Part shown: piece by piece, positions 6,604 to 53,345 of the stretch
Position numbering within the stretch: the first letter of the stretch is position 1
How the letters are laid out: each line of letters starts with the position of its first letter
From: Anaspis maculata
Taxonomy: Eukaryota > Arthropoda > Insecta > Coleoptera > Scraptiidae
Length of the DNA: 64,000 nucleotides
Assembly (NCBI GenBank): GCA_949128115.1
Contig: OX421962.1
Coordinates: 14,211,262 to 14,275,261, forward strand
Direction: 5' to 3'
The notes under the pieces: model-generated
Seen by the model: only the letters and a program-made list of their open reading frames with translations
What the model was told of the DNA's origin: nothing
The model's database searches: none
Translations under genes and position numbers: made by a program

Positions 6604-7700
6604 ATCAGGCAAGACTCCATCGCAGTACAAACAACCAAAAGGCTGATGAGGTTACTGACACCGAAGATTTTGCAAGATACTTGTCTTCATTAGAGTCTAA
6701 CCTCCCTATTTTAAAGCGAATACCCAGAGGAGCCCGTCCAATTGCTGCTGAAAAACTAACTTCTGTTATAAGCGAATGTTTATCAAGAAATGATCAGAAG
6801 ACTTGGGAAAAAATCCTCACTTTTGCTTACGATAATCTTAGAGTACCTTAGTCGAAAGAGAAGACATCCCTAACTAGTCTTGTGGAACAAACTATTTCTT
6901 CAAATTCTCCTCCTTCTATTCTGAGAAGAAAGAAGAATCCAGTGACACTTTCTACTAAGGTGGTAGCAAAAGATTCCGACTTTGATATTAGAGGAGCTCT
7001 CAAACTATTACAGAGTAATAACTTCCTCGCAAACTCATCAGATGAAACCTATCGACTTCTTGGCGAGAAACACCCGCCACCTTCCCGTGAACTGTTGTTT
7101 CCTGAACCATCAAATGACTTGAACCGTCAACTTATTATTGATCCAAAAGTTGTTTTACAAAAAGTTTTCTTATTTGCTCCTGGTACGTCTTCGGGTATAG
7201 ATGGTCTTTCTGCTCAACACCTGAAGAATTTACTTTTCAAATCGGCAGGTCCTGCTGGGGAAGATTTGCTCAGTGAATTAACAAACTTGATAAATTTGAT
7301 AGTTTCTAGGAATGTGAATCAAGATATATGTCAGTTCTTTTTCGGTGCTTCTTTATGTGCCCTTACGAAAAAGAATGGGAATATAAGGCCCATTGCAATT
7401 GGTTGTACTCTTCGAAGACTCTCTTCAAAAATTTGTTGTCAACTTATAGCAGATGAATGTTCGGCCTACTTACAACCACACCAGCTTGGTTTTGGAACTA
7501 AACGCGGAAGTGAAACCATTATCCACGCCACAAGGACATTCATTGAAAATAATCGAAATTCAGAAAAAGTAATTTTGAAAATCGATTACAAGAATGCTTT
7601 CAATGCTGTCGAGAGGGACTCTTTATTACAAGAGATTCAGTCGAAATTTCCACTAATATACCCGTACATGTGACAAAGTTATGCACATCCATCTCTGCTA
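6604..7700 (+). pseudogene. Non-LTR element reverse transcriptase, N-terminal half
   Basis: The frame carries the pre-RT motif RIPRGARPIAAEKL (about 6715-6760) and then RT blocks: PGTSSGIDGLSAQHLK, LTKKNGNIRPIAIGCTLRRL, PHQLGFGTKRGSE and ILKIDYKNAFNAVERD, where D of KIDYKNAFN is the first catalytic aspartate. In-frame stops occur at 6849-6851 (TAG) and 7671-7673 (TGA). The reading that starts near 6882 uses GTG and is not a true start. The frame continues to about 7750, where QQGD marks the next RT block and a frameshift follows. The element copies its RNA into DNA at the target site; this copy cannot. Confidence 0.8.
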
Positions 7701-10352: not shown

Positions 10353-11124
10353 GAGTCAGGAGCAAAGCGGCCGATTGTGGATTCGACGCTACCGTCATCG
10401 ATAATTATTCGATATGGTGTTACGGGATCGCTTTATTGCTGATTTCAACCGTGGACCTGTTCAAGACAGACTTTTTGGAGAAAAATCCTCCTGCACGTTA
10501 GCCGACGCTGTGGCTATAGCTTTCGCAAAATCAGCAGCCAGCCCAGCTACATTGGCTACAGTGGTTAAAATGGAGCCAGGTGTCCACCACGTAGTAGCGA
10601 AGAAGTTCCAAACAGAGCAGCAAAATCAACCACAAGCAAGTGACAAGCAAGGTACAAAATGTGAGTGTTGTGGACGAAGCAACCATCCTACGTCAAAATG
10701 TCGGTATCTGAATTATACCTGTAATACATGTCACGTTAAAGGTCATTTCTCTCTTATGTGTGCAAAAAAAGGTTCGAAAAGTTCCAATATTCTGAAAAAT
10801 CGAGCTCAGAATTTTATCGAAGGTGGAGAAGTTTTTTCAGTCAACAGTTGTGAGATTAGAAACCCATTACTTATCAAGGTGGAAATAGGTAAAAGAGAGC
10901 ATATTTTTCACTTAGATTCTGGTGCCTCTGTTTGTGTGATATCAAATCACTATTGGAAAAAACATTTTGCTAGTGATAAATTGTCTTCCAGTAACCGTTC
11001 ACTAAATGTTTATAATGATTCCAGAATGGTTAACCTGGGAACTTTGGATTGCAATGTAAAATTCAAAAACATGACAAAAAGGGTAACATTTTCTGTGATC
11101 GAAAACGGAGGTCCCCCGATATAA
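10353..11124 (+). pseudogene. gypsy-1 gag C-terminus and protease
   Basis: Gag resumes (RVRSKAADCGFDATVIDNY) and shifts frame near 10408 into the frame that continues to 11124. Two zinc knuckles, CECCGRSNHPTSKC and CNTCHVKGHFSLMC (about 10660-10755), bind packaged RNA. The retroviral-type aspartic protease follows, with HLDSGASVCVIS at about 10909-10945 (catalytic Asp in DSG). A TAA at 11122-11124 interrupts just before the conserved GRDF, so the nonsense change sits in the protease-RT linker. Confidence 0.85.
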
Positions 11125-23250: not shown

Positions 23251-23998
23251 CTTCCCAGATTGCTTGTACCTTCTCCGATGTTGAATTCTATTCGCGTCAA
23301 TTTTGTGTCCCAGGTACGTAATAGATTTCTGGTTGAATTTGCATTTGTCCTTGTTAAAGTGTTGTCCAAATTATTGTGCCGCCACCAATAAATTTTCCAA
23401 CCTCCGGATAAGTTCCTCTTCTGTACTTCCCTGGATTGCAATGTCATCGAAGAACACGACGACTCCTTCCATTTCTTGTAATATCTGTTCAATAAATCTC
23501 TGCCATATGTTAGGCGCTGTTTTCACACCAAACATGAGCCGCTTTACCTTGTAAACGTCTTTATGGGTACTTATTGCCTGCATTTTTGCTGTATTCTCGT
23601 CGCATTGTATATGTAAGTAGGCCTGATGTACATCCAAGGTGCAGAACAATTTTCCGCCGTTCATTTTCAACAAGATGTCTTCAACTTTTGAGATCGGGTA
23701 ACGATCGTCTTTGATTTAGGGATTCATAGTCGTTTTGTAGTCGGCACATAGTCGAATTTTTCCATTTGGCTTTACAACTGGAACCACTGGTGTTCCCCAC
23801 ATACAGTGTTCGATTTTTCTTCAATGATTCCGGCTTCTTCCAACCGCGTAATTTCTTCTTCGGCCCTGGGTAGTAACGCGTAGGGTACTGGTCTTGGCCG
23901 GAAAAACACCGGTTGAACCTTTTCATCGACGAGCTGGTGTGTACATGCGTAGTTTGGTACGGTTCCCACTGTGGCCTGATATATATCGGTGTATTCAT
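23251..23998 (-). pseudogene. gypsy-2 reverse transcriptase
   Basis: The minus strand carries the RT entry RPRPVPYALLPRAEEEITRL (24350-23772 frame), then shifts near 23810 to a frame with [13 protein letters not shown], a TAG near 23717, and then GGKLFCTLDVHQAYLHIQ, MFGVKTAPNIWQRFIEQIL and VVVFFDDIAIQGST. The catalytic box is FFDD in place of YLDD, a non-standard first residue though the two aspartates are present. It is continuous with the protease upstream. Confidence 0.8.
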
Positions 23999-24350
23999 TC
24001 AACAGTTTTTCTAATTTCTCTGTGTACATTTCCCCCGTGCTTTGGAATTGATGTATTGATTCCCAATCAATTTTGATTCTCTTCAGCCATTCTCTTCCGA
24101 AAATCGGTTCCACGTTTAACGGTAGCACGTAGATCTTGCCCTGTATCAACTGCCCTCTATAGCTTATTTTCACTGAAGCTTTTCCTCTTGGGTAGATTTC
24201 TTCACCGGTATATGTTCGTAATTTGACATTGGCTGAACGCAGCCTTTTAGCCGGGTACATTCTCTGAAGTTGATTCAACGACATTGTAGAAAGTGCTGCG
24301 CCGGTATCCAATTCTATAGTACATTCTTTGTTGTCCAGTTTTACATTCAA
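23999..24350 (-). pseudogene. gypsy-2 protease
   Basis: The frame begins MNVKLDNKECTIELDTGAAL; ELDTGAA is the aspartic protease active site (DTG). PIFGREWLKRIKIDW marks its end, the usual junction to RT in gypsy elements. It lies between Gag (stop near 24498) and RT in the normal order, with a frame change from Gag near 24365. The protease would process the polyprotein. Confidence 0.8.
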
Positions 24351-24497
24351 TAGGAATTTTTTTGCATACTAAGATATGAAGTGAATCGTTAACATTCCAG
24401 CTTGGTCTCTTCCGTCATCCTCTTCATCCTCGTCATCTTCTGCCATCATCATTTTTTGGTCCTTGCTTGAATAATGCCTTCCTTTCAAACATACTCT

Positions 24498-25343
24498 TCA
24501 TAGATGTCTCTTTGTACCACACATGCCGCAAATTAAATTCTTCGCAGAACATTCGTCTGCCCTGTGATTTTCCCTGCCGCATCTGAAACATTTTCCCAAT
24601 AATTCTTTTATTGAACTTCCCTGGTTACCCTTCTCATCTCTGCCGTTCCAACTGCTAGCCTTTTTCACGTTACTTATTTTGTTGATTAAAGTAACTGGCT
24701 GCATTTGGTTCGAATCTCTTTTTAATGTTTCGATTGCTTTGGCTAAATGTATGATTTCCTCCAGGGTCACTGTCGCCTTTTGTTGTAGCAATCGTTCACG
24801 AATGTCGGTGTCCCTAATACCTCGTATAAACTGGGACCTCATGTGTGCATCATTGGTTGAACTGTTGGATTTTCCGCAAGTAAAATTGCAGTACATGGTC
24901 AGTTTTCTTAGTTCTGCAACATAATTGATTATGGTCTCACCTTCCTGTTGCATACGTAATGAAAATTTGTGTTTTTCGGCTATTTCGCTCGGCTCTGGTG
25001 ACAAATGGTCTTTCAGTAGTTTAACCAGTGTCTTGTGATGTTTTGTTTTTGGTAAGTCCGGAGCTGTAAGTTTTGTCAATGTTTGATAAATTTTGGGACT
25101 AAGACAGTTTATTAGGATTTGTACGCATATAGTGTCGTTTGTCGTATCGTTAACGTTTTTCAGTTCCAGATGATATTCCAGTCTATGTAAATAGCAATCG
25201 AATGTTCCATTTGACTCATTATAAGGTTGTAAATTCCCGTTTTCCCGGATTTCCCGGCTTCCAACTTGTCGTTCCATCAACGCCTTATTCATGGCTTGCA
25301 TTTCTTGTATTGCCTTCGTCAACTGTTTCATGTACCGTTCCAT
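24498..25343 (-). CDS. gypsy-2 Gag
   Basis: The ATG at 25343-25341 opens a 281-codon frame. It has a coiled N-terminus (MKQLTKAIQEMQAMNKALM), a capsid-like helical core (YLHRLEYHLELKNV, FIRGIRDTDIRERLL) and a zinc knuckle CFRCGRENHRADEC. A second knuckle starts CGMCGTKRHL, but a TGA falls before its last Cys (RVC follows in frame), so the annotated stop is a nonsense mutation within the knuckle. The start is about 140 bp inside a PBS-like sequence. Gag packages element RNA. This is the best preserved gypsy Gag in the window. Confidence 0.8.
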   Translation of the reverse strand: MERYMKQLTKAIQEMQAMNKALMERQVGSREIRENGNLQPYNESNGTFDCYLHRLEYHLELKNVNDTTNDTICVQILINCLSPKIYQTLTKLTAPDLPKTKHHKTLVKLLKDHLSPEPSEIAEKHKFSLRMQQEGETIINYVAELRKLTMYCNFTCGKSNSSTNDAHMRSQFIRGIRDTDIRERLLQQKATVTLEEIIHLAKAIETLKRDSNQMQPVTLINKISNVKKASSWNGRDEKGNQGSSIKELLGKCFRCGRENHRADECSAKNLICGMCGTKRHL

Positions 25344-25482
25344 TTTCCACAGTAACTTCTTCCTTCTTACTCCGTCATTTTAAATCCTTGGGCTTTGCGA
25401 GGTCGTCATCTGTAGTCGTGATTTTCAAGAGTAATCTGTTTATCCGTAATCGTTATCGTATTCTTGTTCGTTGCCAATCTTC

Positions 25483-29039: not shown

Positions 29040-29684
29040 GTTTTCCAAGATATGTTGGCCAGCGGAACGAGCCGCCCATCGAAGGGCCAATGGACTTCGC
29101 CGCTCCATATGGTAAAAAAGTAGGACGGTCGTCGTCTGCATGCCATCACGCAGTCTGATTGCTACCCCCTTCCACATATCCTCGACATCGTCTCTGGTTC
29201 TCGCGATGAAACATTTTTTTCCACGATCGACATGGAAAAATCATATTGCCAGATCCCAGTGGCTGCTGAAGAAGTTGAGAAGACGCCCGTCATAACACCG
29301 TTCGGGCTCTTCAGATTTTCTTGCATGTCCTTCTGGCTTCGTAACGTCGCATGGACCTTCCAACGGCATATTAACAAGACGCTACGTGGTTTGGACTTTG
29401 CTGTCGTGTATTTGGAAGACATTCTGGTAGCTTCGTCGAAAGCTGGAGAACACCAGCAACATCTGAGAAAAGTTTTCGAGCGCTTGCGTTCGTCCAGTTC
29501 CATCATCAACTTCGCTGAATACCACTTTAGTCAGCACGATGTTGAATTCCTCGGCCACAAGACGAGCAAAGAGTATAGCCCATTCTTGAAAAGGTCGACG
29601 CAGCACTCAAGTCGACCTCGAGTAGCGATCAAAGCTTTCGAGGAGATCAAACAGCGACTAGCGACAGAGCTATGCTTGAATTGA
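29040..29684 (+). pseudogene. gypsy-3 reverse transcriptase
   Basis: The plus strand shows MLASGTSRPSKGQWTSPLHMVKK (about 29052-29118), then CYPLPHILDIVSGSRDETFFSTIDMEKSY, FGLFRFSCMSFWLRNVAWTF and the catalytic VVYLEDILVASS (YLEDI in place of YLDDI, so the first catalytic aspartate of the box is Glu). VEFLGHKTS follows. Gag and protease are missing upstream. The remaining frame from 29232 is open for 150 codons but begins within the domain. Confidence 0.8.
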
Positions 29685-42552: not shown

Positions 42553-42601
42553 CAACGCCTATGTGGGAACAACTGATTTGAGGTAGTTGACCCCGCCGTC
42601 T
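42553..42601. other. Junction between FB10 and Transib-like element
   Basis: Forty-nine bases separate the two elements and end in the 5-mer CGTCT, the left target-site copy of the Transib-like element. Confidence 0.6.
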
Positions 42602-42640
42602 CACATAGGGGTAAATGGTCGAAAGGTCTGGACAAAAGTA
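42602..42640 (+). promoter_or_regulatory. RSS-like terminal signal, left end
   Basis: Heptamer CACATAG (42602-42608), 23-bp spacer (42609-42631), nonamer ACAAAAGTA (42632-42640). The vertebrate RSS consensus is CACAGTG / 23 / ACAAAAACC. CAC and ACAAAA match exactly. It would be the transposase binding and cleavage site. Confidence 0.75.
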
Positions 42641-42837
42641 TTTGGATCTAAAGGTCAGAGGTCACTCTTTTCTTTTTCGCATTTAAAAAGCTCGCTAAAG
42701 AAATATCACTGTTTGATATAAATTTGATACCACTTCCAATACTTACAGGTACCTACCTGAATAGAGATGGGATTTTTTTGAATTTCGATTTGTTTTCCTC
42801 CAATCAAGTGAATACTTGGGTAGGTATATTATTGAAA

Positions 42838-45193
42838 TTAAATTGAAGGCCGACCTTGTTCATCGGTATCTTCTTCGCTTTCATTGATGTCAAGAAAATT
42901 TGATGGAGCGGAATGAGGAAGTAACAAATCTGAAGTGTCTTTCAAGAAAGGCGCTGTTTTCTTCCGGGGCGTTGGTCTTGTACATGAGAGAAGTGGATCT
43001 GAACTGAGCATAAGTCTGTTAAGAACATCTTGATTGCAGTTCACCCTTGAAAATTTTCTTGCATAACTTGGCGATAAGATCGAAAGTGCTAATTTCTCGC
43101 TTCCGCTGCTTCCTCTGAAAGTTGGCCTATCGGCGAAAGTGCGTTTTCAGCTACAGCTGGTTCATGAATCAGAATTTTATGCATGGTAGGAGTCATTGGA
43201 TGCCAAGAATACAATTCAACATAAAGCTTGGCAGTATGCATTGTGTACACGGCGAATTGTAGGGTATCAATCTTGTGTCCACTTGATATGGTTTCTAAAA
43301 TCACTTTGAATCGATGAATGAGGCGCAAATCAATACCTGTTATTTCGGCCGATAATTCGCAATCAAGAAAAAATCTTCTGCTGGTGGCATTCAGGCATCA
43401 TTAGAGTTACTGAATCCGGCTTTGGGAACGTCCACAATGAGACCCATTTTGTTCCTGAATTCTTGTTTATATTAGCCTTCCTTTCTTTGACAATTGATTT
43501 ATCTATTTCTGATCCCAGCTGCTTTAATGGCTGGTTCATATGATAAGTGCAGCAAGCTCTCAAACAACTGAATTCTGGCATGCAAGATCGGTAAACCAAA
43601 ATCGTAAGTTTTTTGGTCAGCTTTAAATCTTTGTGATAGATCATTAAAATTTTCCGATGTGGATCCACACAGGTAACATTTCATTGTCGAACAAGTGCTG
43701 GTAGCAGAATTACACACTTTGCTATCCACCATTGTCAGTGCTATTTTGTGTTTTACAACGATCGTCTTTCCCCCATCAAGTTTAGTTTCATTCAAAGTGT
43801 CGATCTGCTGCTGAATATGTATAGTTTATTTCTTCTTTTGTTATGTCACTGGATTCCTTGATGAATCTTATCCTAATCGGTCGACAGAGCCTGGGAGATG
43901 AAGGAGTTGGATTCTGCCAGATTACTTTTGCGTTGTCTCCATCACCCCAAACCAACTGTAATGGTACCAAGGAACTTGGAAAAATATTTGCATCTGAATC
44001 TTCACTATTCTCAAACTTCTGCTTAAATTGTGTCTGTTGAGAACCATCACATCCCCATTCAGTTATTAAGATCATATTGTTACAGTCACTCTCACTTGAA
44101 GTTTGCACAACTTCTTCCAAATGCGCTAATAATCTTGATGCAGTATGGTCTGATAAAGCCTGTAATTTAGTTTCAGCACGAGTTTCTGTAACTTGAAATG
44201 ATTCAGGGATTGGATAACAGTCTTGTTTGGCTTTATGTAATGATGTGTAGCACGAATAGAGCTCTTTGCGGTAGCTTCTGATTATTTCATACTGCCTTCT
44301 TGTTAAACCAGCTTCCGTAAACATAGAAAGAGCCTGAAAAGGTGACAGCCGCTGATTTATATCCCTTTCTGGGCCCTTAAAGTGGGCTTTCTTATATGCT
44401 AGTTCGCCTTCTTTTGCTGCGTTCACATGAATCTTCGAAACGCTTTTGGGGTCGTCCAAGTCTGACTATTCCTACAGGTATTTGTGAAGTCCCTTGAAGC
44501 CAATGTTTGTTCTGTTTCCTAAATTTACCTTCAGTTCTGGCGGAAGCGTTCCATCTTCGTCTAAATTGCAATTTCAATTGCTTAATTTTTCCTTTCAACT
44601 CTTGTAGATGTTTGTCTGAGTACTTGTGAAGATTTAGCAAGACATTTTCTGAATAATTCAACTTCTCGTTGAACGGAAGAGCATTTTGCCGTTGCATGAG
44701 GTTGAATAGCTCCTTCCGTGATCTTACTTCAAAGCCTGATGGACCTGGTGAAGAATTGAGTATATTTAGTGACAAAGTTGAAATTTTCATTTAATTTGTA
44801 TTTTCTGATTCTAGAAGAAAAAAAATCAATAAAATCCAAAAGGGCAGATTGAAGCAAGATTTTTTTGCTACGATCTAGTACACAAATATCTGTTCTTCCC
44901 AATGATATGAAACATTTTACAAAACCCAGCAAAACTTGTAACTAAATCAACTTTGAAAAGTTGGAATTCGCGCAAAATTTTCCTAAAATTATTGATACAT
45001 GAAAATGGCGAAACTATCAACAGTAAAGACGTGAAAAGATTATCCAATACGTTAAACTGAAGTCCATACCTGGTTCTGATGGATTCATCATCAAAAACTT
45101 TCTACCTTGTCTCTGGAACGTGAAATCTTGTTCTAAAGTTTGGGTTTGCTTGATAGCTTTAGACAGCGAAACATTCTTCCTCAACAAGTGTCA
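42838..45193 (-). pseudogene. RAG1/Transib-like transposase gene, broken
   Basis: The minus strand holds a probable first exon (about 45193-45070) ending GAACCAG at a GTATGG donor. A 325-bp intron follows, with acceptor TTCTTCACCAG at 44745. The second exon then runs as PSGFEVRSRKELFNLM ... RLGRPQKRFEDSCERSKRR. Later parts include KIALTMVDSKVCNSATSTCS, KCYLCGSTSE (zinc ligands), LHARIQLFESLLHLSYE, TMHKILIHEPAV, GQLSEEAAEARN and ARKFSRVNCNQDVLNRL near the end (stop at 42838). The SEE...RN...R..ARK.S....DVL pattern lines up by eye with the C-terminal catalytic-Glu region of RAG1. I could not place the two catalytic aspartates. At least five frameshifts (near 44395, 43790, 43540, 43450, 43085) inactivate it. 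Confidence 0.65.
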
Positions 45194-45320
45194 ACTTCTG
45201 ATCAGAAATACGACAAGACGGTCACTGCGATCAAGTTTGAAACCACATCACAATTATCATTCACTATTCAACTTCGTTAAACAGAGAAATTTGCTCAGCT
45301 AGGGCAACTTTTGCAAAATT

Positions 45321-45359
45321 GACTTTTGTTCAGCTATTTGGCTTGAATACCCCTATGTG
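45321..45359 (-). promoter_or_regulatory. RSS-like terminal signal, right end
   Basis: Read from 45359 inward on the minus strand: heptamer CACATAG, 23-bp spacer, nonamer ACAAAAGTC. Spacer sequence differs from the left end except for its first five bases and a few near the nonamer, so heptamer, spacer length and nonamer are what is shared. Confidence 0.75.
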
Positions 45360-45364
45360 CGCCT

Positions 45365-47512: not shown

Positions 47513-47822
47513 CGCCCTTTGGTGCAGTAGAACCACAAGAAGCGAGCCACCAGTATCAATCATTCATCGAGGAAATCAACAAAGAGTGGAGAAAAATCGA
47601 TGACGCCCACACAGAGATTCGAGCCGATGGCACAGATGTACAACAGTACTACAGAGTGAAAGATGAGAACAGGGAACTCACCGACAAGCTGGAAGAGTTA
47701 ATATATGACTCAATAGAGGCGAAACAAAGGTCAAGAGTCCAGCTACCAAAAGCAAAGATTCCCACCTTCGAAGGCGGGTACGAACAATGGACCACTTTTC
47801 ATTCTATCTATTCAAAAAGATG
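47513..47822 (+). pseudogene. BEL/Pao gag, N-terminal part
   Basis: An open frame without an ATG runs from a TAG at about 47510 to a TGA at 47820. It encodes HQYQSFIEEINKEWRKIDDA, a coiled-coil-like stretch, and ends VQLPKAKIPTFEGGYEQWTT, the highly typical BEL Gag boundary LPK..IP.F.G.Y..W. A frameshift near 47800 passes the reading to the next frame. Confidence 0.8.
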
Positions 47823-48905
47823 ATCCATGAAAACACAGCATTAAGCCGTACCGAAAAAATGCAGTTTTTAAAAACCAACATCAAAGGAGAGCCTAGCAGA
47901 TTGATCCAGCATCTACTAATCACTGAAGCAAACTACGAAGACGCTTGGAGAATATTGAATGACCGATACAACAACACAAGATTGCTACTGTCAAAACTGC
48001 TAGACAAGCTGTTCGATATGCCAGTAATATACCAGGAGTCATCAGCCCAGTTGAGAAAACTCCATGATACAGCATCAGAATGCCTAAGTGCCATTGGAAA
48101 CTTAGACATCAAAACAACGGAATGGGGTCCAATCGTCACGAAGATGGTAACCAGAAAATGGGACCCAGAGACCAATCGAATCTACGAGCAGTCTCTAAAG
48201 AATCCAAACGAAGTACAAAAATTCAGTGAATTAATGGAATTTTTGAGAGCAAGATTCCAATCACTCGAAATGACAACAAAGGCTGCGGTACGAGAGAGCA
48301 TCGAAAGCCGATCAAGAAGAAATGGAACATCCAGATTTGCTACCAGAGCCCCCTGCAACATTTGCAACATAAACGGCCATAGCACACACCAATGCTACAC
48401 GCTGCAAAAGCTCAGTCCAAACGAAAAGAGAAAACTAATCCAAGAAAAACATTTGTGCATGATATGTCTAAACCACGATGAAAAAGCGAGATGCCTTAGT
48501 ACAAGAAGATGTGAAACCTGCAACCAGCCACATCACACAACACTGCATGTGGAAGAAACAAGAAACGCCAGATGGAGTAATTCTAACCCGAATCCCGAAA
48601 AGACATCAAATTATCCATCTCCAAGCGAAATGCACAACAACAACAACAATAAGCCGAGACCCGTGACCACAAGCCATGTGAATAAGCAAAACAATGTTTT
48701 GCTGGCAACAGCATTATTAAACGTGAATAAGGCGAGGTCAGGGACCAACGAACTAATACGAGTATTGATCGATCAAGGATCCCAGGCAGCCTTCATGACG
48801 GAAGAAGCAGTTCAACGTCTGGAGCTTACAAAGACAAAAATCCACACAGAAATTTGTGGAACACAACACCGAAAATTGCGAAGTCAAAAGTGGAAGTCCA
48901 ATTAA
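47787..48905 (+). pseudogene. BEL/Pao gag and protease
   Basis: The frame continues Gag (KKMIHENTALSRTEKMQFLK, GEPSRLIQHL), then three cysteine-histidine clusters (CNICNINGHSTHQC, CMICLNHDEKARC, CETCNQPHH) and the aspartic protease RVLIDQGSQAAFMTEEAV. DQGSQ in place of DSGSQ is a known BEL variant. The apparent ATG at 47787 is an artefact of the frameshift. A second frameshift near 48880 takes the reading into the RT frame. Codon use is A-rich on the sense strand, unlike the gypsy copies. Confidence 0.85.
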
Positions 48906-50074
48906 CGCCAAGATTTCCAAGCAAATACTACATTAACGTCGAAATGATAGTCCTGCCGAAGCTGACGCAAACACTGCCATCGAACGAGGTCAGGTGCGAA
49001 ACCAGCGAGTGGGACAACCACATGCTAGCAGACCCAACCTTCAATATACCGGGACCAGTGGATGCGATCCTAGGAGCCAAAGAATTTGCGGAGATCGCAA
49101 AAAACGGGCTGCGTAAATCTAAAAGTGGATTATTCGGCCAAAATACGGAGCTAGGTTGGATCCTGTCCGGAAACGTGAAAGATAACGAGATAGAAAAATT
49201 CCAAATCATCAACATGATAGCCCAAGTCGAAGAAGACGCACAACTAACCAAATTCTGGGAAATCGAAGAAGTCAACGCCACACGAGCCAACAACCACGAG
49301 GAGGAGCAGTGTGAAGAATTCTACAACCAAACAACCGAAAGAAATGGGGATGGTTCATATACCGTCAGAATCCCATTCAAAACAAAACATGACGACATGG
49401 GGAATTCAAGATCCAGAGCAGTTTCAAGACTATTGCAATTAGAAAAAAGATTAGCAAAAGATATGGATCTGAAAATTCAATACCACAAATTTATGGAAGA
49501 ATATCTACATCTCAAGCACATGGAGCCAACAAAAGATTATCAAGGAGGAGCATATTACATCCATCATCAAGCAGTCATCCGAGAAGCCAGTACAACGACG
49601 AAGCTGAGAGTCGTTTTTGATGCATCCTGTAAGACGTCCAAGGGAATAAGCCTAAACGATATAATGTACACCGGCCCAAGACTACAACAAGAACTATTCG
49701 ACATCCTACTACGATGGAGAATGTACGAGATCGCCTTCATCGCAGACATCGAAAAAATGTATCGTCAAATTAGAATACATAGAGACGATCAAAAATACCA
49801 ACGAATCTTATGGAGATTCGACGAAGGGACACCAATCCAAGAATACGAACTGACAACAGTTACATATGGAACAGCAGCAGCACCGTACCTAGCCGTTCGT
49901 ACACTGCAACAGCTAGCAAGAGATGAAGCCAAAACCTTTCCAAAAGCATCGAAAATTGCCCTACGAGATTTTTATATGGACGACCTAATGACGGGGGCCA
50001 ATTCGCTGGAAGAAGCCAGAGAAATTCAAGACGAATTAATGAAAATGATGCAGTCCGGCAACCTTACGTTGTGA
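48854..50074 (+). pseudogene. BEL/Pao protease end and reverse transcriptase
   Basis: A 406-codon frame: VDAILGAKEFAEI and SGLFGQNTELGWILSG (the protease-RT region of BEL), HHQAVIREASTTTKLRVVFDAS (RT entry), FIADIEKMYRQIRIH (first catalytic Asp), TYGTAAAPYLAVRTL and the active site FYMDDLMTGA. It stops at TGA 50072-50074 in the middle of a conserved LRKW-like block (L-stop-KWVSN). Because the downstream frame is the same, this is a point nonsense mutation, possibly CGA to TGA, and not a true end. Confidence 0.88.
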
Positions 50075-51090
50075 AAATGGGTCAGCAACAAAAATGAAAT
50101 GCTGGAGGAATTGCCAGAAATACTACGTGAGCTCATTGAGATCCCAGAGAACGAAACAAAAAAATCGTTAGGAGTTCTTTGGGCACCATACGACGACTCA
50201 TTCCGCATCAAGATAAACGTTACAGAAGAAAAGAAGCCGACAAAACGCCATATACTGTCAGAAGTTGCAAAAATCTTTGATCCAATAGGATGGCTAGCTC
50301 CAGTCATCATAAAAGCAAAGATCCTTATACAAAAACTATGGATCCAGAACCTCCAATGGGACGAGATCGTACCAGAAGAACTGCAAACAGAATGGTCATC
50401 CTTCCACAAACAATTGAAAGCAATGGAAGAAATAACCATACCAAGATGGATACAATACAACCCAAGCAGGGACCAAATTGAACTACATGGATTCTGTGAC
50501 GCATCAGAACAAGCGTACGGTGCAGTAATCTATACAAAATGCACGGATCTCGCAACAAAGAGAACAACAATCACCATACTAACTGCAAAATCGAGAGTAG
50601 CACCTACCAAAATTGAATCAACACTTCCGAGGTTGGAGCTATGCGCAGCAGTGCTACTAGCCAAGCTGATGAAGAGAGCAGCGGGAACACTCGAAATCCA
50701 AGAGCCAAAAACATTTGCATACTCAGATTCAATGATCACACTGGGATGGATAAAAGGAGATCCGAGCAGATGGAAAACATTTGTTGCAAACCGAGTATCC
50801 GAAGCAACCAAATGTATACCACCGCAGCAGTGGCACTACGTGGCGACAGAAGAAAATCCAGCTGACATCATATCAAGAGGCATCGAGCCAATGAAAATGA
50901 AGAACCACGAACTATGGTGGAAAGGTCCAGCCTGGTTGTCACAAGCCACCAAACGATCAGAAAATGAAGAAATAGAAGAACCAGAGGAAGAGAGGAAACG
51001 GCAAATACAATCGTTTCAAGCAAAGGTTGAAGAAACAGGAGAGAGCCTGTTAAATCGATTCTCTGGATACACAAAAATGCTAAGAACAAT
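50075..51090 (+). pseudogene. BEL/Pao RNase H and connection
   Basis: In the same frame as the RT: KRHILSEVAKIFDPIGWLAP (typical BEL connection), ELHGFCDASEQAYGAVIY (RNase H first Asp), STLPRLELCAAVLLAKL (catalytic Glu) and TFAYSDSMITLGWIKG (Asp), ending with NPADIISRGI and LWWKGPAWL. All expected RNase H acidic residues are visible. The coding phase is cut at 51090, where foldback FB11 is inserted, and resumes at 52000. Confidence 0.88.
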
Positions 51091-51999
51091 TCGCGATTTA
51101 AATTAATTTTTCCCGCCACAAAATGGCTGCGAAAGGCGGAATTCAACTGACAGCCCGAGGTGACATGAGATGTCACACTTACAACTTACAACCTCACTTT
51201 TATTGTATCAGTCATTCACCACTCAGTGTTTACTGTTTACTCCAGTTTACTCTCGACTTGGCTTCCTAGTGTGGTCCCAGTTAGTGATAGTGCGTCTGTT
51301 TGCTGTGTTCTAGTTTTGCGAGTGAATTTAAAGTGATTGTTGTGTTTAGTGGTATTACTGTATCCTGTATCCCATCGTCAGTCACAGAACGTGAACTAGG
51401 AAACTTTGATGGACAAGAGAAATGGAAAGAAGACTGGGCTCAACAAACTGTACCCGAATGACGTGGCCTTCACGCGCATACCAGGGTTCTCCAGAGGCCT
51501 TCGTGAAGGTGACACCTGAAGCTGCCGATTGCCTGTGGAATATGGACTTGGACTTACAACTTCTTGCCAAAATCAGTCCATTTACCTGTGGTACTTGTTC
51601 CATATAGAGCTATGTGGTTTGTATTTACTATTGCTTCACCTTCCACAAAGTTCCGGGAGCTTGGAGAGGCGGCACGCAAATAATTGTAAATCTCTCCCAA
51701 CGGCAAACGAGTATCTCTTATAACAGTCGTAATAAAAACAAATAACACAACAATCACTTCAAATTTACTCGCAAAACTAGAATACAGCAAACAGACGCAC
51801 TATCACTAACTGGGACCACACTAGGAAGCCAAGCCGAGAGTAAACTGGAGTAAACAGTAAACACTGAGTGATGGATGACTGATACAATAAAAGTGAGGTT
51901 GTGAGTTGTCAGTGTGACATCTCATGTCACCTCGGGCTGTCAGTTGAATTCCGCCTTTCGCAGCCATTTTGTGGCGGGAAAAATTAATTTAAATCGCGA
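51091..51999. mobile_element. Foldback FB11 inside BEL/Pao pol
   Basis: TCGCGATTTAAATTAATTTT (51091) pairs with AAAATTAATTTAAATCGCGA (to 51999). ~275-bp arms (51091-51365, 51725-51999) include TTTCCCGCCACAAAATGG and its complement. Both sides carry AT (51089-51090, 52000-52001). Removing the element plus one AT brings the flanking BEL pol frames into phase, so the boundaries are secure. The 360-bp spacer has an ORF-like stretch (GLNKLYPNDVAFTRIPGFSR) of unknown origin. Confidence 0.88.
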
Positions 52000-52001
52000 A
52001 T

Positions 52002-52530
52002 AGCATACTGCAATCGTTTTATCAACAACTGCAACAAGAAAAAACAAAAACAACATGGCTCTCTAACAGTAAAAGAGCTAGACAACTCATTGAAACAGAT
52101 AATCAAGATAACGCAATCACACAGCTTCAAGAAAGAAACAAAAGCGTTGATTAAGAAAAAAGGTATCGACAAAACCAACAAAATTGCCTGCCTCAACCCG
52201 TTCATGGACAATGAAGGGATTATGAGAGTAGGAGGAACATTGCAAAATTCAGCCCTCTCATATAATGAGAAGCATCCGATAATCCTGAAAAGAGATTGCC
52301 ACATTACAAGGCTTATAATAGAAAACGCACACACTGTCACACTACACGGAGGTGGTCGAACGACATTGGCCTACATTCGTCGGCAGTTTTGGATTATAAA
52401 CGGGAAGAAAGCCGTCAATGCGGTAATTAAAAAGTGCACTATATGCATAAGATATAACGCGGTAGCAGCACAACAGAGAATGGGAGAGTTACCAGCTCCA
52501 AGGGTCACACCGGCATCTCCATCACAGCAA
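52002..52530 (+). pseudogene. BEL/Pao integrase, N-terminal zinc domain
   Basis: After FB11 the frame reads IAYCNRFINNC, LTVKELDNSLKQIIK, CLNPFMDNEGIMRVGGTLQN, then AHTVTLHGGGRTTLAYIRRQFW and KKCTICIRYNA, the His-His-Cys-Cys zinc domain of BEL integrase, and GELPAPRVTPASP. It then runs into a deletion at about 52525. The start shown by the ORF at 52090 is internal. Confidence 0.82.
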
Positions 52531-53345
52531 GACGAGGAAGCTGCCAGCACATGTATAGTGATAACGGAACGACGTTCGTTGGAGCCAAAAACATCCTCGA
52601 CGAAGAAGTAAGAACCATCCTCCAAGATGAAAATCTAACAGACAAGATGACAACGATCGGCACACAATGGCACTTTATTCCTCCAGCAGCTCCCAATTTC
52701 GGCGGACTTTGGGAAGCAGGAGTAAAGTCGATGAAGTATCATCTCAAGCGAATCATCGGAGATACGACAATGACGTATGAAGAGCTTACAACTCTCATGC
52801 ACCAAATAGAAGCAGCATTAAACTCACGGCCACTAATACCGCTTACTGAAACAAGCGAAAACGAGGTATTAACGCCAGGTCATTTCTTGATCGGACGAGC
52901 ATTAGTGTCGCCACCGGACCCCATCGAAACACCAGTCAATAGAAACTTATCGGAAAGATGGAGATTATTACAAAAAATGGAGAAAGATTTCTGGAAGACA
53001 TGGAGTTCAGAGTACCTGTCGAAACTACAACAACGGTACAAGTGGAAGAACGAACAAGATAACGTGGAAGTTGGCGATATAGTCATCATAAAGGAAGAAT
53101 TTCACCCTAGCAAATGGCCACTTGCGACAATAGCAGAGACTCACCCAGGAAAGGACAACCTGGTTCGAGCGGTCACGCTGAAAAGAAACGGAGGAATTCA
53201 GCAAAAACGGGCAATTAACACAATAATCCTATTGCTCAAGAAAACAGATGACACCAAGATAACTACGCAGACAGTACTCGCCAATGCGGCAAAAGTAACG
53301 ATGAAAGCAAGTCCAGATCGAAAAACAACTCGAAAAAGCCATTAG
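52531..53345 (+). pseudogene. BEL/Pao integrase, C-terminal part with core deletion
   Basis: In a new frame: MYSDNGTTFVGAKN (second catalytic Asp), PPAAPNFGGLWEAGVKSMKYHL (catalytic Glu in WEAGVKS), ALNSRPLIPL, LTPGHFLIGRAL and the C-terminal VEVGDIVIIKEE. The segment between RVTPASP and the SDNGT box, which normally carries the first catalytic aspartate (GVDYAGP region), is missing, about 100 codons by comparison with the family. The TAG at 53343-53345 comes from palindrome FB12 and not from the element. Confidence 0.85.

Follow-up and report, generated by a model that had tools for sequence, protein, structure and literature searches.

An old, inactivated Transib transposon with RSS-like 23-spacer ends in the beetle Anaspis maculata, and the young short copies that share its ends

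The subject of this analysis is a 64-kb stretch of the Anaspis maculata genome (Coleoptera, Scraptiidae; assembly GCA_949128115.1, contig OX421962.1, forward strand, positions 14,211,262 to 14,275,261), hereafter called the window. At window positions 42602–45359 it holds a Transib copy of 2,758 bp in which both ends are present and the frame of the transposase gene, on the minus strand, is broken. We conclude, with hardly any doubt, that this is an old, inactivated autonomous cut-and-paste DNA transposon of the Transib superfamily, inserted at a GC-rich 5-bp target. RAG1, the antibody-gene cutting enzyme, descends from the same group. The results below establish the anatomy, family and boundaries of the element, the loss of its coding frame and the target preference of its short relatives.

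Both ends carry the 12-bp perfect inverted repeat CACATAGGGGTA, and mismatch-free copies of this sequence are confined to these two places across the 64-kb window. When split in the manner of a V(D)J recombination signal sequence (RSS), both ends resolve into CACATAG, 23 bp and ACAAAAGT, followed by A on the left and by C on the right. On the left (plus strand) the heptamer-like CACATAG occupies 42602–42608, the spacer 42609–42631 and the nonamer-like ACAAAAGTA 42632–42640; on the right (minus strand) the corresponding positions are 45353–45359, 45330–45352 and, for the nonamer-like ACAAAAGTC, 45321–45329. The original prediction had claimed these termini, with exactly 23 bases between heptamer and nonamer, a perfect 12-bp terminal repeat and the flanks CGTCT (42597–42601) and CGCCT (45360–45364). 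All of this was borne out: the repeat matches at 12/12 positions, and the flanks, which form the target-site duplication, differ by one base. Compared position by position, the left and right ends are identical at 12/12 bases in positions 1–12, 7/18 in 13–30, 8/8 in 31–38 and 7/21 in 40–60. In simulations of 200,000 unrelated pairs, a run of 8 bp located exactly at 31–38 had a frequency of about 3e-5, and one lying anywhere in 13–60 a frequency of 6e-4. Another candidate for a second end, CACATAGGCGTT at 42554–42565 (minus strand), was rejected; it contains two mismatches, and such matches occur near chance level (4 found, 2.69 expected). The window gave no Rfam match at gathering thresholds.

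The read-through translation of the broken gene matches the transposase of HzTransib from Helicoverpa zea (PDB 6pqn, E=1.3e-97), and all three DDE catalytic residues are present despite the broken frame. This single gene occupies most of the element. Searches by tblastn with the relatives P0001, P0002 and P0004 placed the pseudogene at 42838–45175 (minus strand), as five frame segments (44697–44401, 44351–43812, 43819–43397, 43385–43050 and 43068–42856) and a probable short upstream exon; it is damaged by frame shifts and in-frame stops and has lost about 40 codons to a deletion. The codons of the first catalytic Asp (WGCDG, 44046–44048), the second Asp (TMVDSK, 43724–43726) and the Glu (SEEAAEARN, 43101–43103) align with D126, D225 and E436 of HzTransib (PMC6941560). 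The probable 5′ coding exon (45070–45175, minus strand) ends in ...NPSEP(G) and would be separated from the main frame by a 325-bp GT-AG intron at 44745–45069 (donor ACCAG|GTATG, acceptor CACCAG|GTCC); EPGPSG is contiguous in the relative P0019.

At the protein level, 395 sequences match the read-through at E<=1e-3, and those with organism names among the 120 listed are all from insects. The best of the listed proteins is the Transib-like P0001 of Periplaneta americana, with 65–67% identity (65% over 73% of the read-through); a quick tree with 122 rows also places it as sister of the window protein (SH-aLRT 85). Searches of viral contig and genome contig collections confirmed no relative.

The boundaries of the element are fixed by its relatives in the same genome (757.8 Mb in 50 contigs). 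A search with the whole element, in which 40 of 131 candidates were scored, returned the window itself, one 569-bp partial match at 95% identity and 38 short copies that match approximately positions 1–149 and 2155–2758 of the element. All 38 were fetched. They are about 774 bp long, and both ends, with no fewer than 10 of the 12 terminal bases, are kept in 37 of them; sharing of boundaries among genomic copies, proposed as a check of the original prediction, was thus confirmed. The proposed check of 5-bp duplications in young copies also came out in its favour, perfect target duplications being found in 30/38. Of these 30 duplications 20 read CGNCG; the first position is C in 29 cases, the second G in 27, the third any base, the fourth C in 25 and the fifth G in 29. 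The body of the short family aligns with window positions 42602–42750 and 44756–45359, and its ends, taken from one example (L041), are identical to those of the window element at 38/39 positions on both sides. The matching parts of the window element are 86.6% identical to the short-copy majority; in the 60 bp nearest the termini the agreement rises to 56/60 and 59/60. The left 35-mer has 40 exact occurrences in the genome, compared to 0 for the control. When the one copy whose left end was not found (L075) is excluded, the 37 remaining copies have a mean identity of 97.1% and a median distance of 0.65% from their majority; the scored copies favour window-like ones, and therefore this age figure may be too young. 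Since the short copies share the ends, carry target duplications and look young, ends of the window type were functional recently and were used by a transposase acting in trans.

The 569-bp partial match (G000:C5:94932427–94932995) is 95% identical to positions 2192–2758 of the element, and closer to the window copy than the 774-bp family is. Its similarity breaks off inside the probable intron. When the 4.6 kb retrieved at this locus were searched for exact occurrences of CACATAGGGG, no second end came up.

Together with the transposase profile, the duplications and shared boundaries bore out the assignment to Transib made in the original prediction, and its check of the translated core against Transib and RAG1 gave HzTransib as the match. 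The element has a homologous transposase core with DDE residues, CAC-starting inverted-repeat ends and a bipartite RSS-like end in which the heptamer is followed by an A-rich block about 23 bp inside; GC-rich 5-bp duplications of the CGNCG type are found in its relatives (30/38 perfect, 20/30 CGNCG), and there is a single gene, with no RAG2-like Pfam match in the 11 ORFs scanned. An element of another CAC-ended superfamily, such as CACTA, or a chance inverted repeat flanking an unrelated gene, could account for ends that start with CAC and for a perfect repeat of just 12 bp. However, the homology to HzTransib, the 5-bp CGNCG-like duplications and the identical boundaries in 37/38 relatives all speak against it, and this explanation, to which we give practically no weight, stands refuted on the transposase profile and on the duplication length. 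It is also very improbable that the sequence belongs to the RAG-like transposons (RAGL/ProtoRAG) or is a RAG1-like gene that the host has domesticated. A RAGL/ProtoRAG element would combine RAG1L with a convergent RAG2L gene; no RAG2-like match was found in the 11 ORFs, and the protein is far nearer to HzTransib. Neither do the ends have the full make-up of V(D)J signals, the two window spacers both being 23 bp with no 12/23 asymmetry, which was rejected for this element, and the heptamer being CACATAG (5/7 matches) instead of CACAGTG.

We compared these ends with those of 11 further Transib families with defined ends in the same genome. Searching the genome with P0001 yielded 81 matches (74 of 374 candidates scored), from which 30 coding loci (L009–L038) were fetched. 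Ends with a perfect duplication inside 1.5-kb flanks were obtained for 19/30; L018–L021, L025, L031–L033 and L036–L038 were excluded. Dropping eight sibling copies left the 11 families, which were delimited by eye on the basis of their end sequences. The perfect duplications in this set are partly selected, because the end-pair score rewarded a matching duplication. Over the 24 ends of the 12 families, mean information is 1.67 bits at positions 1–7, 0.69 at 8–12, 0.46 at 13–26, 0.56 at 27–30, 0.79 at 31–38 and 0.25 at 39–60. CAC and position 7 stand out, as does an A-block at 33–35 (1.3–1.5 bits), and the drop beyond about 38 bp is strong (31–38 versus 39–60, p=5e-20). A nonamer match of at least 5/9 at spacer 23 is present in 19/24 ends, and in 12/24 no other spacer scores higher than 23. 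ACAAAA at 31–36 of both ends is limited to 2/12 families, the window element and L034, and CACAGTG at both ends is found in 6/12, L034 included.

Two statements of the original prediction therefore stand in part. Conservation of positions 1–7 and 31–39 above the spacer holds for 1–7 and for the A-block within 31–38 relative to most of the spacer. The claim that the spacer differs while the nonamer is kept holds for the window element and for L034, but not when left-right identity is pooled over the 12 families, where 163/216 at 13–30 and 80/96 at 31–38 do not differ significantly (Fisher p=0.14). Pooling only the window element, L034 and L014 gives a contrast with p=3e-5, in a set chosen after seeing the data. 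The ACAAAA nonamer, described as unusually RSS-like, is indeed rare but not unique to the window element.

The consensus 23-RSS of V(D)J recombination is CACAGTG-23-ACAAAAACC. The window element resembles it in the CAC and the 23-bp spacer and matches its nonamer at 6/9 positions on the left and 7/9 on the right; it differs in the heptamer and has no 12-spacer partner. Over both ends, matches to this consensus number 27/32 in L034, 26/32 in L014 and 23/32 in the window element. The L034 element (L034:359–3590; G000:C5, within 38068410–38072702) has the ends CACAGTG-23-ACAAAAGTA and CACAGTG-23-ACAAAAGTC at a CACGG duplication. It fits the consensus 23-RSS better than the window element does, and its gene has an open frame of 605 aa with a continuation in a separate segment. 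Positions 37–42 of the window element, L034, L010 and L012 seem to be end-specific, the gene-start end tending to AAAAGTC and the opposite end to AAAAGTATT or AAAATAT/AAAATTA. The same tendency also seems to hold between the window element and L034, which are only about 47% identical in protein.

Several observations weigh against the reading of the window element as a Transib insertion with a heptamer-23-nonamer end. Its own target duplication is imperfect (4/5, CGTCT versus CGCCT). Among the 12 families, the best conserved 8-bp block inside the ends begins at 29 and not at 31, another spacer gives a better nonamer match in 12/24 ends, and an A-rich block about 10–12 bp inside outscores position 23 in L010, L012 (left), L017 and L029. 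On the protein side, Pfam RAG1 gave no match on the separate ORFs (11 scanned: 7 + 4) and merely sub-threshold matches on 2/4 intact relatives. On the basis of GRP and other conserved positions, Transibs have been proposed to have an equivalent of the nonamer-binding domain (PMC9435367), and the GRP-containing basic segment GRPQKRFEDSCERSKRRRT (44401–44457, minus strand) sits at the proposed place. Yet hhalign against one zebrafish RAG1 fragment was unsupportive of such a domain (probability 0.6%, E 0.097), and in the structural comparison four alignment rows start at residues 87–100, at only 9.2–11.2 Å rmsd. Because the profile test gave no support, the protein side of the nonamer reading is unproven. 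As to the A-rich blocks at 10–12 bp, the right end of L029 reaches 8/9 at spacer 10 and that of L012 only ties; they could be due to chance in A-rich DNA.

Much of what is seen here has precedents. HzTransib (PDB 6pqn, 6pqr, 6pqu, 6pqx, 6pqy and 6pr5) is homologous over the whole transposase core and shares inverted-repeat ends and a 5-bp duplication (PMC1852546), whereas the window copy is dead and the relative P0002 is just 40–41% identical to HzTransib. The Transibs of Drosophila and Anopheles have in common with the window element CAC ends, an RSS-like heptamer and nonamer, a single gene and a 5-bp duplication (PMC8355894, PMC6941560). They differ from it in heptamer (CACATAG in the window) and nonamer core (ACAAAA), and in spacers, which are either symmetric with 20–22 bp or asymmetric with 12/23 (PMC8355894), instead of 23 bp on both sides. 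RAGL/ProtoRAG and vertebrate RAG1 have the same fold, as tested on relatives, with 17–19% sequence identity over the aligned core; CAC ends and 5-bp duplications are shared (PMC7204232), but RAGL carries RAG2L, unlike the window element. Earlier papers also describe heptamers and nonamers of some Transibs that are identical to those recognised by RAG (PMC6941560), CGNCG as the Transib target (PMC4735498, PMC5704228), and a proposed origin of V(D)J signals from Transib ends (PMC4411706). A literature text search for CACAATG together with Transib gave no match. The novelty in the original prediction was overstated, because RSS-like Transib ends, spacers near 20–23 bp, 5-bp duplications and CGNCG targets are already published. 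Its description of a diverged family was correct, the nearest protein (Periplaneta) being 65–67% identical and the nearest long coding match in the same genome 63%.

The latter figure bears on the question of which transposase moves the short copies. When the genome was searched with a 180-aa segment of the protein, scoring 150 of 174 candidates, the other long coding matches had 63% protein identity at most, and one 40-aa fragment reached 70%. At the DNA level, the next match to the coding body is 79% over 349 bp, followed by pieces at 65–75% (18/18 candidates scored). Because these searches turned up only fragments, and coding copies with at most 63% protein identity, for the coding body of the window element, the 774-bp short family looks orphaned. 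There is an even chance that it was moved by the window element's own family, whose intact copies would since have been lost or be missing from the assembly. The ends, identical at 38/39 positions on both sides, and the body that aligns with two parts of the window element argue for this explanation; the low identity of all remaining coding matches, in protein and in DNA, argues against it, as the short copies are young. The other possibility, to which we give slightly less than an even chance, is that the short copies are cross-mobilised by a different Transib family that is intact and has a matching terminus, the L010/L011 type being the most plausible. L010 has the same 12 terminal bp, its left end is identical to the right end of the short family at 35/39 positions, and its ORF is open over 698 aa. 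L010 and L011, which sit at different target duplications, share 99.6% identity over 2,945 bp, so that this type must have moved recently. In contrast, the left end of the short family matches L010 at only 27–28/39 positions, with 9–10/18 in the spacer part. On these sequence comparisons, L010 is the best candidate for a driver from another family and might move the short copies. Full-length copies that are near-identical at different 5-bp duplications also occur as L026/L027 (99.97%), L014–L016 (99.5–99.6%) and L029/L030 (99.7%), besides L010/L011, indicating that several Transib families moved recently.

By analogy with HzTransib, which forms hairpins in vitro (PMC6941560), and with RAG, a mechanism may be proposed for the family of the window element. 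An intact enzyme, a DDE transposase related to RAG1, would bind both ends by way of the CAC heptamer and the nonamer-like A-block 23 bp inside. The two ends would pair and be nicked at CAC, with hairpins forming on the flanking DNA; the excised element would then be inserted at another CGNCG-like site, where a 5-bp stagger would give rise to the duplication. Both the chemistry of hairpin formation and the part assigned to the A-block are carried over from these two systems.

The window as a whole is rich in transposable elements. Pieces of a BEL/Pao-type retrotransposon (DUF1759, RVT_1, Peptidase_A17 and DUF5641) with several open frames lie at 47709–53342 (plus strand), and further retroelement pieces with reverse transcriptase, aspartyl protease and zinc-knuckle matches at 6852–7670 (plus), 10405–11121 (plus), 23775–25379 (minus) and 29124–29681 (plus); two of these further matches fall below the Pfam cut-off. 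Among the best 120 of 1813 Pao/BEL protein matches, identity is only 38–53%, and those with names are all from arthropods.

The element itself is mostly ordinary, and the useful residue of the analysis lies in the many Transib families of this genome, the apparently orphaned young short family, and L034, which is nearer to the consensus 23-RSS. Read jointly, the data could mean that end compatibility is set by an RSS-like code, the CAC heptamer and a nonamer-like block at 23, and not by the spacer; that the orphaned short family crosses family lines by means of an intact transposase sharing just these motifs; and that ends of the L034 type (CACAGTG-23-ACAAAAGT on both sides) might still be read as 23-signals by vertebrate RAG. 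We consider this combined interpretation unlikely. With 12 families whose ends are defined, several of them in near-identical copies, the end positions read by the transposase are open to comparison and assay. The L034 and window types, with the ACAAAA core exactly at 23, lend themselves to testing whether transposon ends are still recognised by vertebrate RAG.
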